64,000 bases of DNA, taken from the NCBI RefSeq assembly GCF_000018405.1, contig NC_009943.1:2793001-2857000 (forward strand), given 5' to 3'. This stretch comes from Desulfosudis oleivorans Hxd3. Lineage in GTDB: Bacteria > Desulfobacterota > Desulfobacteria > Desulfobacterales > Desulfosudaceae. Shown here piece by piece: positions 6,019-12,488 of the stretch. The translations under genes and the position numbers were made by a program. The notes beneath the pieces were generated by a model that was not told where the DNA came from, ran no database searches, and worked only from the letters and a program-made list of their open reading frames with translations. Within the stretch, counting starts at the first letter, position 1. The number at the start of each line of letters is the position of its first letter.

Positions 6019-7551
6019 ATGGGTCAGAAAATAAGACAAACCGGATGTGATCAGCGAACGATAGAAGCCTTTCTTCAGGGTGCCGACATCGTTCTGGATT
6101 CGATTCGTGAACCGTTACTGGTGCTGGATCCTGCCCTGAAGGTTGTAATCGCCAATCGCTCCTTTTACCTGACATTCGGCGTCAACCCGAAGGAGACGGA
6201 AGGGGCATTAATATATGATCTTGGCAACCGGCAATGGAACATCCCCAGGCTGAAAGAACTGCTTGAAGATATCCTTCCCGGAAATACACTGTTCCATGAC
6301 TTTGAAGTGGAGCATGATTTTGCGACTATCGGCCGGAAGATCATGCATCTGAACGCCCGGCGGATTTACACTGAGCCAGACCAGACCCAACTGATCCTGC
6401 TGGCCATTGAGGATGTGACCGACCGGGTAAGCTATAGAAGGAACCTTGAAGGGCTGGTTAAAAAGAAAACGGCTGAACTGACCGTTGCCCTGGAAGAGGC
6501 GGAAGAGAAAAATCGCATCGCTGAGACATCCCTTTCCGAAATCAAAAAGTTAAAGCAGCAACTGGAAGCGGAAAGAGCCTATCTGCAGGAAGAGATCAAA
6601 CTGGAGTACAATCATGAGCACATTATCGGTCAAAGTGACGGGCTCAAATACGTACTCTATAAAATTGAACAAATCGCCGACAGCGATACCACGGTACTGG
6701 TTCTTGGCGAGACAGGCACCGGCAAAGAACTGGTTGCCCGGGCCATTCACAACTTGAGCCGCCGCAAAAACCGGACGATGTTAAAAGTAAATTGCGCGGC
6801 GCTGCCCACAAACCTGATCGAAAGCGAGCTGTTCGGGCATGAGAAAGGCGCCTTTACCGGGGCGCATGCCAGGCACACGGGACGCTTTGAGGTCGCCAAC
6901 GGCACCACCCTTTTTCTGGATGAAATCGGCGAATTGCCGCTGGAACTGCAACCCAAGCTGCTCCGCGTACTCCAGGACGGCGAGTTTGAACGGCTGGGCA
7001 GTTCCCACTCCACCAAAGTCGATGCGCGGATTATTGCCGCCACCAATCGCAATCTGGAAGAGGAAGTCCGTAATGGCAATTTCCGTGAGGATCTCTGGTA
7101 CCGGTTAAATGTTTTTCCGATTACCATGCCGCCGCTCCGGGATCGCCTGGACGACATTCCGCTCCTGGTTGAGTTTTACGTCAAAAAAATTTCCAGGCGG
7201 ATGGGCAAGACCATTGAAACGATTCCTTCAAAAATTATGGAGACGTTACAGGCATATCCGTGGCCCGGCAATGTCCGGGAGCTGGAAAACGTTCTTGAAC
7301 GCGCGGTGATCAACTCGTCGGGAACCAAGCTGCGTCTGGTTGATGAGCTTAAAAGGCCGTTCAGGGGGTTAAGCTCAAGCGAAAAAACCCTGGCAGCGGT
7401 TGAACGGGACCATATTGTACGCGTCCTTGAACAGACCCAATGGAAAGTCGGCGGTAAAAACAGCGCCGCTGAAATTCTCGGGCTCGACCGCAGCACATTG
7501 CGCGCCCGCATGCGTAAGCTCAATATCTCCCCCCCCAAAACAATAAAATAA
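6019..7551 (+). CDS. PAS-domain sigma-54-dependent transcriptional activator
   Basis: A 510-residue bacterial enhancer-binding protein. Residues about 20-130 form a PAS domain (VLDSIREPLLVLDPALKVVI), about 140-190 a coiled coil, about 200-430 the AAA+ domain with Walker A GETGTGKE near 230, the sigma-54 contact loop GAFTGA near 276, and LFLDEIGELP. The C-terminal Fis-type helix-turn-helix (AAEILGLDRSTLRARM) is at about 470-500. There is no receiver domain, so a signal is probably sensed directly by PAS or via a separate kinase. Two downstream sigma-54-type promoters share a palindrome about 115 bases upstream, making this protein their most likely regulator (inference). Confidence 0.92.
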   Translation: MGQKIRQTGCDQRTIEAFLQGADIVLDSIREPLLVLDPALKVVIANRSFYLTFGVNPKETEGALIYDLGNRQWNIPRLKELLEDILPGNTLFHDFEVEHDFATIGRKIMHLNARRIYTEPDQTQLILLAIEDVTDRVSYRRNLEGLVKKKTAELTVALEEAEEKNRIAETSLSEIKKLKQQLEAERAYLQEEIKLEYNHEHIIGQSDGLKYVLYKIEQIADSDTTVLVLGETGTGKELVARAIHNLSRRKNRTMLKVNCAALPTNLIESELFGHEKGAFTGAHARHTGRFEVANGTTLFLDEIGELPLELQPKLLRVLQDGEFERLGSSHSTKVDARIIAATNRNLEEEVRNGNFREDLWYRLNVFPITMPPLRDRLDDIPLLVEFYVKKISRRMGKTIETIPSKIMETLQAYPWPGNVRELENVLERAVINSSGTKLRLVDELKRPFRGLSSSEKTLAAVERDHIVRVLEQTQWKVGGKNSAAEILGLDRSTLRARMRKLNISPPKTIK

Positions 7552-7620: not shown

Positions 7621-7660
7621 AAAAAGGCCATATACGACCATCGGTTATATATGACCTTTT
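7621..7660. promoter_or_regulatory. Palindromic upstream activator site (site 1)
   Basis: Arms AAAAGGCCATATACGACC (7622-7639) and GGTTATATATGACCTTTT (7643-7660) are an inverted repeat matching at 15 of 18 positions around a 3-base centre. The same design recurs at 10271-10309. The centre lies about 115 bases upstream of a sigma-54-like promoter, as expected for an enhancer. A hairpin terminator of the activator gene is an alternative, but the recurrence far from any gene end argues against that. Confidence 0.65.
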
Positions 7661-7755
7661 CAAACAGCAATTAACGACACACCAAGAACCTTTTCTAAAG
7701 CGATTTCCTTTAAATATCAAAATCATAAGAGATAATGCCGCCTGCATTCCCCGCC

Positions 7756-7771
7756 TGGCACGAAATTTGAA
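7756..7771 (+). promoter_or_regulatory. Sigma-54 (-24/-12) promoter candidate for response regulator gene
   Basis: TGGCACG (7756-7762), four bases, then TTGAA (7767-7771). The -24 element is perfect and the spacing is right; the -12 element lacks the usual GC (TTGAA instead of TTGCA). It lies about 190 bases upstream of the start codon at 7958. The rest of the 7552-7957 gap shows no gene. Confidence 0.62.
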
Positions 7772-7957
7772 TGTTTACAACTGGTTGGGTCTTATGTGCC
7801 AACACGCTTCAGGCGATAGGGGAATAACAACGGTTCACAAATAAAGAGCCATGGGGATTTTTTATTCCTGAACCTCCCTCAAACCCGAATACGATTGGAA
7901 ATATGCCGTATAACCCAAGATGGCGCAGGCATGAATAACGCGATAAGGAGGGATGAA

Positions 7958-8425
7958 ATGACGCACGACACCATGACCGCTATCCGCAAGGGACCCTTTG
8001 GAGATGCGGGTGACAGGCAGACGCATTCTCTGGAGCAGAACAATCAGAACGTTCAACCTGTCCGCAGCCTGGTGATTGATGATGACAGCACTATCCTCAG
8101 ATACGTGGCCCTGATACTTGCCATGCTCAAATTTCAGGAGGTGGAAACCGCCCAAAAAAAACCTGAAGTCATGGAAAAGCTGTCCACCGGCCCCTACGAC
8201 CTGCTGCTCACGGACCTGGAGATGCCGGACGTGAATGGTTATCGTCTGAGCCGAATGATCAAAAAAAAGCGGCATGGCACCAAAATCATCATGATGACGG
8301 GACGTGATAAGAACGACTGCCATGGAATAGTGGCCTCAAAGTGGGTTGACGGGTGGCTCTTCAAACCCTTTGGGCTAAAGGAGCTGCGCCCCATGCTCCA
8401 GTGTCTGGGGATGGTCAGGGATTAA
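7958..8425 (+). CDS. Single-domain response regulator
   Basis: A 155-residue protein with a receiver domain at about residues 35-150: acidic patch VIDDDS, phospho-acceptor Asp in LLLTDLEMPDVNG, the Thr of MMTGRD and the Lys-Pro pair LFKPFG. No output domain is present, so it probably works by protein contact. ATG 7958 is chosen for a near-perfect ribosome site AAGGAGGG five bases upstream; upstream in-frame ATGs lack one. Expression is predicted to be sigma-54 dependent from the promoter at 7756-7771. The kinase partner is not obvious nearby. Confidence 0.85.
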   Translation: MTHDTMTAIRKGPFGDAGDRQTHSLEQNNQNVQPVRSLVIDDDSTILRYVALILAMLKFQEVETAQKKPEVMEKLSTGPYDLLLTDLEMPDVNGYRLSRMIKKKRHGTKIIMMTGRDKNDCHGIVASKWVDGWLFKPFGLKELRPMLQCLGMVRD

Positions 8426-8436
8426 CCTGAATCATT

Positions 8437-8680
8437 ATTGTCCAAAAAAGGGTTTAATCCTGGCAGGACAGCGTTCCGGTTGTTTATCCAAATCCAAATC
8501 GAAATCGAAATCGGGATCGGGATCGGGATCGCTATCGAAATCGGGATCGAATTGTATTTACGGCGGTGCGCTCAAAGATTATTTCCATTATCCTGCTTAT
8601 CCGTGCAGCCTGGCCGTTGGCTTCCCCTGCGCTGTAATGGGCGGGGGCCTGCAATTGATGCCCCGACGTGATGTATAAAG
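8437..8680 (+). repeat. Dispersed hexamer-array repeat element, copy 1
   Basis: The head sequence (TTATTGTCCAAAAAAGGGTT, GGCAGGACAGCGTTCCGGTT) leads into a tandem array of ATCGNN hexamers at about 8488-8553, roughly eleven units of types ATCGAA, ATCGGG and ATCGCT. A conserved tail follows (TTATCCTGCTTATCCGTG, then GATGCCCCGACGTG). Related copies lie at about 11925-12140 (inverted) and 41740-42080; shorter arrays lie at 31684-31737 and 33844-33874. It fills the gap between the response regulator and the diguanylate cyclase; no gene seen inside. Confidence 0.8.
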
Positions 8681-8763
8681 CTTCAAAGTCCTTTTGGGAA
8701 CTGTTTTTTGGACACCAATGAATCTTAATATTTCATGAAATATTCGGGTTGAGGAGACGGTAT

Positions 8764-10140
8764 ATGACCGGCCAGCCAAAAAACTATCACCGACAGGCGG
8801 AAGATACCGTCGCTTTAAAAGGAAAACCCCGGTGGTTGAAGGCAGTGGCATCAGAGTCCAGGCAGACCAGCGAGGCGCTGCGCAAGAGCGAATTGCTGAT
8901 GCGCGCGATCAACGTGTCGGCACGGGATGCCGTTCTCATGATGGATGCCGAAGGGCGGGTTTCCTACTGGAATCCCGCGGCTGAACGAATCCTTGGTTAC
9001 ACCAGCGATGAGGCACTGGGGCGGAATCTGCATTCCCTGCTTGCCCCTCAGCATTATCGAAGGTTGTTTGAGGCGGCGTTCCCGGAGTTCCAGCGTTCAG
9101 GTTGCGGCAATAACGTTGAAAAAACCATGCGGTTAAAAGCCCTGCGAAAAAACGGAGACGAATTTCCTGTAGAACTGTCCCTTGCCGGCGTGCAGCTCCA
9201 TGACGGATGGCATGCGGTTGGTATTATACGTGACATCTCCAATCGTGAGCTGTCGGATAAGGCCTTGCGGGAGAGCGAAGACAAATTCAGAACCTATATG
9301 GAAAAAGCGCCTCTTGGCATATTCGTGGCGGATCACACGGGCCGTTGCCTTGAAGCCAACCAGGCGGCATGCCGGATGAGCGGATACACGGAAGAAGAGC
9401 TTTTGGAATTAAGCCTTCAGGATTTTCTCGCTCCGGATTTTTCAGGCGTGGGGATGGCCTCGTTTAAAAAGTTAAAAACAGAGGGCCGCGTAGACGGTGA
9501 TCTTATGGTACGCGGGAAGAATGGAAAGAATTTCTGGATTAATCTGGTTGCAACAACAATTGGGCCTGACAGAGTGCTTGCTTATTGTCAGGATATCACC
9601 AGGCGCAAGCAGACCGAAGAGGAAATCCAGAAAATGGCCTACCATGACGCCCTGACCGGTCTTCCCAACCGGAAGCTCTTCTCCGATCGTCTGGGTATTG
9701 CATTGGCCCAGGCCCGGAGGGACCAAAAGGGTATCGCGGCCATCATACTTGATCTCGATAATTTCAAGGACGTGAACGATACCTTTGGCCATGATGTGGG
9801 AGATCGTCTTCTCCAGGCAGCGGCAGAGCGGTTAAGCGCTGCACTGAGAAAAAGTGATACGGTTGCGCGCCTGGGTGGCGACGAGTTTGTGCTGATTCTT
9901 CCCGACTTAAAGGGGACAGAAGACGTGGACCGGGTTGCACAGAAAATCGTTGACGGTTTTCGAAACCCCTTTTCCATCGACACCCATCAACTCATCGTGA
10001 CAACGAGTATCGGCATCGCCGTCTACCCCCGGGATGGCATCTCTGAGGTTCTCCTTCTGAAGCATGCCGATATCGCCATGTATCAGGTCAAACAGGCAGG
10101 ACGGAATGGATACCGCTTCTTTAACCCGAACAGCTCATGA
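8764..10140 (+). CDS. PAS-PAS-GGDEF diguanylate cyclase
   Basis: A 458-residue predicted cytoplasmic protein. Two PAS domains, about 45-165 (SARDAVLMMDAEGRVSYWN) and about 170-290 (EKAPLGIFVADHTGRC), precede a GGDEF domain from about 290. The GGDEF domain starts DALTGLPNRKLFSDRL and has an intact active site RLGGDEFVLILPDL, so it should make cyclic di-GMP from two GTP. No transmembrane segment and no EAL domain are visible. ATG 8764 is preferred since GAGGAG lies eight bases upstream; a TTG at 8749 would add five residues. The stop codon overlaps a TCATGAAA repeat motif. Confidence 0.9.
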   Translation: MTGQPKNYHRQAEDTVALKGKPRWLKAVASESRQTSEALRKSELLMRAINVSARDAVLMMDAEGRVSYWNPAAERILGYTSDEALGRNLHSLLAPQHYRRLFEAAFPEFQRSGCGNNVEKTMRLKALRKNGDEFPVELSLAGVQLHDGWHAVGIIRDISNRELSDKALRESEDKFRTYMEKAPLGIFVADHTGRCLEANQAACRMSGYTEEELLELSLQDFLAPDFSGVGMASFKKLKTEGRVDGDLMVRGKNGKNFWINLVATTIGPDRVLAYCQDITRRKQTEEEIQKMAYHDALTGLPNRKLFSDRLGIALAQARRDQKGIAAIILDLDNFKDVNDTFGHDVGDRLLQAAAERLSAALRKSDTVARLGGDEFVLILPDLKGTEDVDRVAQKIVDGFRNPFSIDTHQLIVTTSIGIAVYPRDGISEVLLLKHADIAMYQVKQAGRNGYRFFNPNSS

Positions 10141-10220
10141 AATTTTTTCACATGGCGGTAGATCGACTACAGCTTCATGTCCCGCGCCTTGCATCCGCAG
10201 CCACATCAACCGTGAGCTAT
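10141..10220 (-). repeat. REP-like element following the GGDEF gene
   Basis: Read on the minus strand, about 10150-10210 matches about 1150-1205 at roughly nine of ten bases, including the 20-mer CGCGGGACATGAAGCTGTAG and CACG-GTTGAT-TGGC. It begins at the stop codon of the upstream gene (TCATGAAATTTTTT). Confidence 0.7.
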
Positions 10221-10270
10221 TCTGTTGCCCCCCCAAACCAGAATCTCAATTCTCAGAGCCTCCCGTGAGA

Positions 10271-10309
10271 AAAAGGTCACATGCGCCCACAGGTTAGATA
10301 TGACCTTTT
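10271..10309. promoter_or_regulatory. Palindromic upstream activator site (site 2)
   Basis: Arms AAAAGGTCACATGCGCCC (10271-10288) and GGTTAGATATGACCTTTT (10292-10309) flank a 3-base centre, pairing at 13 of 18 positions. Same arm length, spacing and consensus as site 1 at 7621-7660. The centre is about 117 bases upstream of the sigma-54-like promoter at 10407. Confidence 0.65.
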
Positions 10310-10406
10310 TTATATAGTTTTTAATAACAACCACGAAAACACTTTTCAGAGTTATTGTCATTAAAAATCAATCCCATAGAAGACAAAACCCGGTGTGCTC
10401 AAAACA

Positions 10407-10422
10407 TGGCACAAAGATTGAA
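10407..10422 (+). promoter_or_regulatory. Sigma-54 promoter candidate for CsbD operon
   Basis: TGGCACA (10407-10413), four bases, TTGAA (10418-10422). It has the same layout and the same -12 variant as the promoter at 7756. It lies about 85 bases upstream of the csbD-like start. Nothing else seen in 10310-10506. Confidence 0.6.
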
Positions 10423-10506: not shown

Positions 10507-10686
10507 ATGAAATCGAGCAACAGAGAAAAGGCAGAAGGCAAGATTCATCAGGTAAAAGGCAAGTTCAAGGAGGCCGCCGGGATAATCGCCGGCAATCGTG
10601 ATCTGGAAGCCGTAGGCAAAGAAGAAAAAAAAGAGGGAAAGATTCAGGAAAAACTCGGCCAGATCAAAAAACTGATGGATAAATAG
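10507..10686 (+). CDS. CsbD family stress-response protein
   Basis: A 59-residue, highly charged protein with the CsbD pattern: KAEGKIHQVKGKFKEAAG, a central AGNRDLEAVGKEEKKEGKIQ and a C-terminal helix. CsbD-like proteins accumulate in stress and stationary phase in several phyla, with no known enzymatic activity. ATG 10507 follows GGGGAAACAACC. It is the first gene of a run with two tiny membrane proteins, and a sigma-54-type promoter with an enhancer palindrome precedes it, so induction by the nearby activator is predicted. Confidence 0.88.
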   Translation: MKSSNREKAEGKIHQVKGKFKEAAGIIAGNRDLEAVGKEEKKEGKIQEKLGQIKKLMDK

Positions 10687-10971: not shown

Positions 10972-11193
10972 ATGAAAGTAACCACACTTGTTGCCATTAT
11001 TCTTATTGCCATAGGGATCCTTGCTTTCGGGTATCAGGGAATCTCCTACACGACCAGGGAAAAGGTCGTCGATATCGGGCCACTGGAAATATCGGCGGAT
11101 AAAACCCGAACGATACCATTGCCGCCGATCGTAGGGGGTCTCGCGCTCGCGGGGGGTATTGTCCTGCTGATCGTGGGCGGGAAAAAGGGCTGA
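10972..11193 (+). CDS. DUF3185-type small membrane protein
   Basis: A 73-residue protein with an N-terminal membrane segment (LVAIILIAIGILAFGYQGI), a polar loop with YTTREKVVDIGPLEISADKT, and a second segment (IVGGLALAGGIVLLIVGGKK). The loop with the DIGPLEI pattern fits the DUF3185 family as I know it. Function unknown. It is probably cotranscribed with the CsbD and DUF5670 genes, the three making a small envelope-stress operon. Confidence 0.8.
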   Translation: MKVTTLVAIILIAIGILAFGYQGISYTTREKVVDIGPLEISADKTRTIPLPPIVGGLALAGGIVLLIVGGKKG

Positions 11194-11288
11194 ACCGTCC
11201 GGGCGGTCGAAACATTCCGCGCGTCGATTCGGCCGCAACGGGCATAATGAAGCGTCAGATGCCGAAGAGCGAAGGATCTCTTTCAACA

Positions 11289-11636
11289 ATGATGAACGTA
11301 ATCAGAACCATCATGAACGTGTTCCCTGAAAAGCAGAAAGAGGTTTTACAGACACTTCTTTCAATGGTTACGCCGGCCGGGGAAGAAAAAGGCTGCCTGA
11401 GCTATGGGATATACAGTGATATCCAGGATGAAAATGTTTTCAACCTGATTTCGGAATGGGAAACCCGTGAACAACTGGACCAGCATATGCGAAGCGACCG
11501 CTTCAGCGTTTTGCTGGGGACCAAGAGCTTTTTAATCGACCCGATGAAGATTCAGATTTTTGCGGTTTCGGATACGGAAGGAATGGAGGCGGTCAATGCC
11601 GTAAGAAAAAAAATGAAACGGATTTCTCCCGCATGA
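11289..11636 (+). CDS. Antibiotic biosynthesis monooxygenase (ABM) domain protein
   Basis: A 115-residue ferredoxin-like ABM domain protein: NVIRTIMNVFPEKQKEVLQT, GCLSYGIYSDIQDENVFNLI, SEWETREQLDQHMRS. Such dimeric proteins include quinol monooxygenases and heme-degrading relatives, and many have no known substrate. The family-like part begins at ATG 11289 (or the adjacent ATG 11292), preceded by GAAGGAT; in-frame ATG 11247 upstream adds residues without family character. Directly after its stop codon the same reading frame continues as a remnant of another gene (11637-11909). Confidence 0.8.
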   Translation: MMNVIRTIMNVFPEKQKEVLQTLLSMVTPAGEEKGCLSYGIYSDIQDENVFNLISEWETREQLDQHMRSDRFSVLLGTKSFLIDPMKIQIFAVSDTEGMEAVNAVRKKMKRISPA

Positions 11637-11924: not shown

Positions 11925-12140
11925 CCGTTTGCGCGAGGGAAGTCACGCCTGCGGCGTGATTCTTTTGGTACTTTTCTTGCCGCCAGGAAAAGTACACGGA
12001 TAAACAGGATAAGGGAAATATTCTTTAAGAGCACTGCCGTAAAGACAATTCGATTTCGACACCGATACCGATAGCGATTTCGATAAACAACCGGAAGACT
12101 GTCCTGCCATGATTAAAACCGTTTTTGGACAATAATGAAA
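11925..12140 (-). repeat. Dispersed hexamer-array repeat element, copy 2 (inverted)
   Basis: Reverse complement of the same element as 8437-8680. Read on the minus strand it has ATTATTGTCC, GGCAGGACAG-CTTCCGGTT, an ATCGNN hexamer array (12048-12086), TTATCC-GTTTATCCGTG, then CTTTTC-GGCGGCAAGAAAAG and a CTTCCCTCGCGCAAACG block. The latter blocks are shared with copy 3 at 41740-42080. No gene seen between 11910 and 12176. Confidence 0.8.
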
Positions 12141-12176: not shown

Positions 12177-12488
12177 ATGCCTGAAAATTTGAAATCAAGG
12201 GATATCGAAGAATTAATGGCTGAAGCCGATGAACTCATCCGGCAGATCAATGCGGATATCATCGAAGAGATGAAGGAAGAACATCTCCTGGAACTTGAGA
12301 AATACGCTCAACGTTTTAAAACGATCAAAGCCACGGTCCAGGAGAAGGCCGAAAAGCAAAAGGACTTTGAATTAAGCGACAGCGCGGACGGAATGCACGA
12401 GGCAATACTGGATATTGTGACGGCCATGCAGGAGTTTAAAGACAAACTTTTCCGATCGTCGAAGGAAGGGACTAAAGATAATTTTTAG
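12177..12488 (+). CDS. Small hypothetical helical protein
   Basis: A 103-residue, strongly acidic and lysine-rich protein predicted to be all-helical, with possible coiled coil over residues 8-60 (IEELMAEADELIRQINADII, then EEHLLELEKYAQRF). No Cys, no signal peptide, no recognised family. Start ATG 12177 lies behind GGGGAGACGCGACC. It stands alone between a repeat element and the convergent FHA gene. It may be a structural or chemotaxis-accessory-like protein, but nothing in the sequence proves this. Confidence 0.6.
   Translation: MPENLKSRDIEELMAEADELIRQINADIIEEMKEEHLLELEKYAQRFKTIKATVQEKAEKQKDFELSDSADGMHEAILDIVTAMQEFKDKLFRSSKEGTKDNF

Follow-up and report, generated by a model that had tools for sequence, protein, structure and literature searches.

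The window (the whole 64-kb stretch of DNA that was analysed) carries the gene of a predicted sigma-54 activator and, downstream of it on the same strand, two control regions, each composed of a candidate enhancer site and a predicted sigma-54 promoter with an IHF-like site between them (Table 1). The first precedes the gene of a single-domain response regulator, and the second precedes a group of small genes that begins with a CsbD-like protein.

Table 1. Positions of the activator gene, the control elements and the target genes in the window; the last row is the third predicted target, elsewhere in the same genome
Feature	Position	Strand	Remarks
Predicted sigma-54 activator	6019..7551	+	PAS aa 26-137, coiled coil, AAA+ with GAFTGA aa 202-368, Fis-type HTH aa 457-501 (Pfam)
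Candidate enhancer site 1	7622..7660	+	core 7626-7656 GGCCATATACGACCATCGGTTATATATGACC; dyads 7626-7639 and 7643-7656; 3-bp spacer; A-rich and T-rich flanks
IHF-like site TATCAAAATCATA	7715..7727	+	41 bp before TGG; 1 mismatch to WATCARNNNNTTR; position kept in most homologous units
Sigma-54 -24/-12 element TGGCACGAAATTTGA	7756..7770	+	pattern match
Target 1: single receiver-domain response regulator, 155 aa, N-terminal extension	7958..8425	+	Response_reg E 2e-22 (Pfam); RBS AAGGAGGG upstream
PAS-PAS-GGDEF protein	8764..10140	+	Pfam; 338-bp intergenic gap after target 1
Candidate enhancer site 2	10271..10309	+	core 10275-10305 GGTCACATGCGCCCACAGGTTAGATATGACC; dyads 10275-10288 and 10292-10305
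IHF-like site AATCAATCCCATA	10366..10378	+	41 bp before TGG; 1 mismatch to IHF consensus
Sigma-54 -24/-12 element TGGCACAAAGATTGA	10407..10421	+	pattern match
Target 2: CsbD-like protein	10507..10686	+	PF05532; sole CsbD in genome (single genome match)
lmo0937-family/DUF5670 membrane protein, 49 aa	10778..10927	+	NF033488 and PF18919, both over cut-off
73-aa protein, two hydrophobic stretches	10972..11193	+	62-75% identical relatives beside other sites; recurrent regulon member
ABM-domain (antibiotic-biosynthesis-monooxygenase) protein	11247..11636	+	PF03992
103-aa helical protein	12177..12488	+	relatives downstream of enhancer units in L085 and L123
Target 3: multi-PAS histidine kinase	G000:C1 ~1,350,580-1,352,370	-	site model E 3.9e-6 (rough); TGGCATGATGCTTG 97 bp downstream

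Control regions and target genes in this genome

Both sites and both promoters lie where the first-pass annotation had placed them, and its interpretation was largely right, although the IHF-like site and the tandem structure of the dyads had been missed. The two sites had been described as an identical palindrome. They do share a common pattern with dyad symmetry, but their sequences differ, and two tandem 14-bp dyads fit better than a single palindrome. The 115 and 117 bp given as the distance to the promoter are measured from the site centre, and from the end of the core to TGG the distance is 99 and 101 bp. Over the whole 3.94-Mb genome, the pattern GGYCRYAT-N15-ATRYGRCC matches without mismatch only at sites 1 and 2, and looser matches (one or two mismatches) stay at chance level, with 60 against 75 for a reversed-pattern control. 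In a model scan, site 1 scored 42.2 bits (E 2.6e-10) and site 2 36.7 bits (E 1.4e-8), the E-values of the RNA model being rough. TGGCAC-N5-TTG occurs without mismatch only at 7756 and 10407 within the 64 kb. Both promoters read TGGCAC-N5-TTGA, with TTGA and not TTGC as the -12 element; this change of the last base from C to A is shared by 46 of the 73 homologous units described below, among which TTGA is the commonest form. RpoN is encoded in the genome (one PF04552 match, E 1.2e-62).

Comparative evidence supports the prediction that both the response regulator gene and the CsbD operon are under the control of these regions. The PAS-PAS-GGDEF gene is possibly co-transcribed with the response regulator gene. 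A short tandem repeat of ATCGAAATCGAAATCGGG units lies between these two genes (8492-8551), and, judging by ORF translations, a similar stretch may occur near 12000-12110. The CsbD gene is accompanied by two genes for tiny membrane proteins, as had been noted, and also by the ABM gene of the same operon, which had been overlooked. The true start of the ABM protein is probably near 11289, and ABM is the first downstream gene in L090, L097, L105, L109, L126, L143 and L144. No Pfam or NCBIfam family was found for the 73-aa protein, and its assignment as DUF3185 was rejected, as it is without Pfam support. The 103-aa protein likewise matched no Pfam family, and its membership of the CsbD operon is uncertain.

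A scan with a model of 70 sequences recovered exactly three sites in this genome, and no place beyond these three reached E 10. The motif had been put forward as a means of finding targets genome-wide, and the scan did yield one further target, a histidine kinase whose site is followed by a -24/-12 element of its own after 97 bp. The objection that the genome would hold no other target therefore fails, and the small regulon first described is larger and better defined than that description, with a third target and a wide distribution. The IHF-like match at the third site lies at -39, and the first PAS domain of the kinase is 58% identical to that of the activator. The kinase (L195, G000:C1:1350000-1352400) has four PAS domains; its frame stops after HisKA, and the HATPase and receiver parts are in another frame, so that the gene seems interrupted, either by real decay or by an assembly error.

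Conservation of the site-promoter unit

Orthologues of the activator, compared over the PAS and linker region, adjoin the same site in other families of the order, with 130-133 bp from the site start to TGG. The copies beside these orthologues reveal the two tandem 14-bp dyads, separated by 3 bp and sometimes by 4 bp, with the consensus GGTCATATATGACC-AYY-GGTTAWATATGACC; a TGGCAC-N5-TTGA promoter follows after about 100 bp. A global scan of 84,980 species for the site, followed after 85-115 bp by the promoter, gave 69 loci with 73 site-promoter units. The gap was 98-103 bp in 65 of the 73 units, though 85-115 bp had been allowed, and the positions left free in the search pattern converged on AAAA-GGTCATATATGACC-AYY-GGTTAWATATGACC-NTTTT, with the -12 element mostly TTGAA. 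Nearly all units came from Desulfobacterota, namely groups of Desulfobacterales and Desulfobulbales, with a few from Desulfovibrionales (L116, L117).

Sites were also found in MAGs that bear the labels Anaerolineaceae, Sumerlaeota and Alphaproteobacteria (L078, L140 and L144). These contigs may be misbinned; the site and promoter of L140 are identical to those of the Desulfobacteraceae MAG L093. At L078:2974-3231, a single site is flanked by two sigma-54 promoters that diverge from it, at 98 and 101 bp; CsbD is served by one of them. At G126:C64:133914-146191 and G306:C34:13118-38625, five enhancer sites are crowded into about 12-26 kb; these islands look like large clusters of stress genes controlled by one activator.

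When the gaps between site and promoter were aligned on the promoter, a conserved A/T block and an ATCA motif appeared. An IHF-like match with at most one mismatch was present on the plus strand between -46 and -36 in 43 of 76 gaps (shuffles 1.35 +/- 1.2), and with at most two mismatches in 62 of 76 (shuffles 9.6 +/- 3.0); in most units it lies at -41 or -40 before the -24 element, on the same strand. Two of the four HU/IHF genes of this genome have IHF-alpha and IHF-beta as their best NCBIfam matches, below the curated cut-offs. In D. vulgaris, IHF is required at sigma-54 promoters (PMC3897727).

The activator family and alternative explanations

The activator has the features of an enhancer-binding protein of the NtrC family (PF00158, E 1.9e-72, with the GAFTGA loop in the sequence) and a Fis-type HTH (PF02954, E 7.8e-9), and Pfam gave no receiver domain. 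It is probably not autoregulated by a sigma-54 route, because no exact sigma-54 element stands upstream of its gene within the window. Helix comparison identified RSTLRARMRK as its recognition helix. RSTLRAR is common to all of the approximately 40 distinct activators of the subfamily and absent from the 16 nearest other activators (57-66% identity), where P mostly replaces the first R and near which no site was found. The sensor part of the window-type activator is a cytosolic PAS domain, and other arrangements occur: the L105, L125 and L144 activators have an N-terminal hydrophobic segment and a PAS_3 domain, the 977-aa L097 activator has an N-terminal hydrophobic segment with PocR and PAS domains, and L173 and L174 have other PAS arrangements. 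The same recognition helix is thus combined with differing sensor parts (L097, L105, L125, L144, L173), as in sensor exchange over a fixed output.

The first-pass annotation had taken the site as the enhancer of the adjacent PAS activator, a proposal that is supported by adjacency to orthologues in other families and by co-occurrence far beyond chance. The activator stands directly upstream of the unit in about 20 of the global loci, with 67-78% identity. Among 389 genomes of the order, the site is present in 106, with almost no matches to the reversed-pattern control, and a close relative of the coil-AAA-HTH part of the activator is present in 89. The site was found in 78 of these 89 genomes vs 28 of the 300 others (both/activator only/site only/neither, 78/11/28/272; Fisher p 2e-45). 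Shared ancestry inflates these counts, though not those of a sample of roughly one genome per family, which gave 8/1/3/46 (p 7e-7). Absence of the activator was judged at E 1e-150, and some of the 28 site-only genomes are incomplete or fragmented assemblies. Five of the 11 activator genomes without a strict site carry a 32-bp variant about 60-380 bp from the activator gene, with a promoter 86-101 bp beyond it, and six had no convincing site. The system was not found in G001 and G002, the two closest family members of this genome.

That the site is a sigma-54 enhancer bound by an activator other than the adjacent PAS protein has a small chance of being true. Desulfobacterales genomes hold dozens of sigma-54 activators, so another could also use the site, and the 28 site-bearing genomes are without a subfamily match at the chosen threshold; against this stand the adjacency in about 20 loci together with the order-wide co-occurrence, the subfamily-specific recognition helix, and the variant site beside the activator in 5 of the 11 seemingly siteless genomes. 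The palindromes could also be intrinsic, perhaps bidirectional, terminators of the upstream genes, alike through their A/T-flanked stems. Such a role would suit their good folding as RNA (z -3.5 to -5.3) between A-rich 5' and T-rich 3' flanks and their position in this genome, each 45-135 bp past a co-directional stop codon. A terminator scanner flagged one site on the minus strand but neither on the transcribed strand, and terminators would not explain why the bases themselves are conserved beyond pairing, why the -24/-12 element follows at a distance that varies by only a few bp, or how the L078 site serves two divergent promoters. The flanks have the same A/T content with (0.57/0.61) and without (0.53/0.64) a co-directional gene end upstream. 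On base conservation, fixed promoter distance and flank composition, termination was rejected as the main explanation and is given only a very slight chance; a double role of the sites, as terminator and enhancer, is possible.

Several genomes have up to 11 copies, some of them clustered, as might be expected of a dispersed repeat or of the end of a mobile element that came to lie near promoters by chance copying. Only three copies exist in this genome, however, the similarity is limited to the 31-bp core, the IHF-like site and the promoter at fixed distances, and the targets form a coherent set in function. This explanation, whose chance we regard as negligible, is refuted by the fixed spacing to promoters. 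The reading of the site as the enhancer of the adjacent PAS activator is retained below.

A probable sigma-54 stress regulon in Desulfobacterota

At least one stress-type family was encoded within 2.5 kb downstream on the same strand in 47 of 73 units and on the opposite strand in none, and the upstream side of the units gave 11 and 5, the ORF calls under these tallies being automatic and approximate. Among the first two downstream genes, the Pfam tally was BON 12, DUF5670 9, ABM 8, CsbD 6, pyruvate kinase 5, FtsH/M41 3 and Band_7 3, and DUF3309, YtxH, YflT, PRC-barrel, M48 peptidase and an ice-binding protein were also found downstream of units. BON/OsmY, YtxH, YflT and lmo0937 are typical stress genes. 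A dedicated stress sigma factor, looked for as RpoS, was not found: the RpoS model TIGR02394 had no match over its curated cut-off in 56 relatives including this genome, and one of 14 control genomes, presumably E. coli, exceeded it. The second sigma factor of this genome is RpoH-like, and the site is of the sigma-54 type. The regulon is best read as a general or envelope stress regulon driven by sigma-54, with gene content pointing to stress as its probable signal.

Considering all the above results, we have proposed a model that we hold to be very probable as a whole, comprising the activator, the tandem dyads, an IHF-assisted sigma-54 promoter and a stress regulon. The architecture, its conservation and spacing, the co-occurrence and the target content are read directly from the sequences, and we infer from them the protein binding, the oligomeric state, the action of IHF and the use of sigma-54. 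The PAS-AAA+-Fis activator would bind the tandem GGTCATATATGACC dyads about 100 bp upstream of the promoter, probably as two dimers. At the conserved site, which stands 41 bp ahead of the -24 element, IHF likely bends the DNA between enhancer and promoter, which would allow the AAA+ ring to reach the sigma-54 polymerase and open the promoter. Three units would respond in this genome, namely the response regulator, the operon of the CsbD, lmo0937-family, 73-aa and ABM proteins, and the distant histidine kinase. Across Desulfobacterota, the same enhancer-promoter unit would drive a general or envelope-type stress regulon.

This arrangement resembles NtrC/NorR-type regulons with IHF-assisted looping, such as the orp operons of Desulfovibrio vulgaris, in its AAA+ GAFTGA activator with a Fis-type HTH, its upstream enhancer and its -24/-12 promoter with an IHF-like site between (PMC3897727). 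It differs from them in a new site sequence (tandem GGTCATATATGACC), new targets and a near-constant spacing over at least two orders. The sigma-54 regulome of D. vulgaris Hildenborough (Kazakov et al., 2015, PMC4641369), which includes DVU3305 ("general stress") and DVU2989/PspF, likewise comprises, in its main text, regulons that are small, with one to a few operons next to the gene of their activator, and some of these regulons control stress operons. The DVU2894 motif given there, yGTCA-N6-TGACr, has a half-site similar to that of the present site. The main text of that study names no CsbD target and describes DVU3305 as a two-component regulator with UspA-type targets; as compared with that main text, the present motif could equal the motif of one of its activators.

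The csbD gene belongs to the regulon of RpoS in Salmonella (PMC5437024), of SigB in Listeria and Bacillus (PMC2248587) and of EcfG in Sphingopyxis (PMC7083833), so that csbD/yjbJ is common to all three regulons and the one described here. Those regulons use a dedicated sigma factor, whereas here sigma-54 and an activator with a replaceable sensor domain are apparently used. The present regulon therefore resembles a general stress regulon but, being built on sigma-54, falls outside the RpoS, SigB and EcfG families. No published description of this regulon was found in the open-access literature for the site sequence, for CsbD with sigma-54 or sulfate reducers, or for sigma-54 in the general stress response of Deltaproteobacteria.

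We tentatively suggest, at somewhat less than even confidence, that in Desulfobacterota without RpoS one activator family with interchangeable sensors governs the general stress response through a fixed enhancer-IHF-promoter module. The sensors would be cytosolic PAS, membrane-tethered PAS, PocR-PAS or multi-PAS, and the module would do the job done elsewhere by dedicated sigma factors, a part of the suggestion that we hold with the same caution. The three-part control region, in which a site of likely DNA bending stands between a double activator site and a sigma-54 promoter, recurs in many sulfate-reducing bacteria and connects a single family of activators with small stress-protection proteins for which other bacteria use dedicated stress sigma factors. 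It would be a case of sensor-domain exchange in which the DNA-binding output and the promoter geometry are kept fixed. The motif can be used in hundreds of genomes, and it places small proteins of unknown function, such as lmo0937/DUF5670, the 73-aa membrane protein, DUF3309 and ABM, in a regulatory context. The model names an activator and its recognition helix, predicts its binding site, lists the targets and makes a dependence on IHF likely, and it may offer a precise and testable answer, for a large group of bacteria, to the question of how sulfate reducers without RpoS organise their general stress response.
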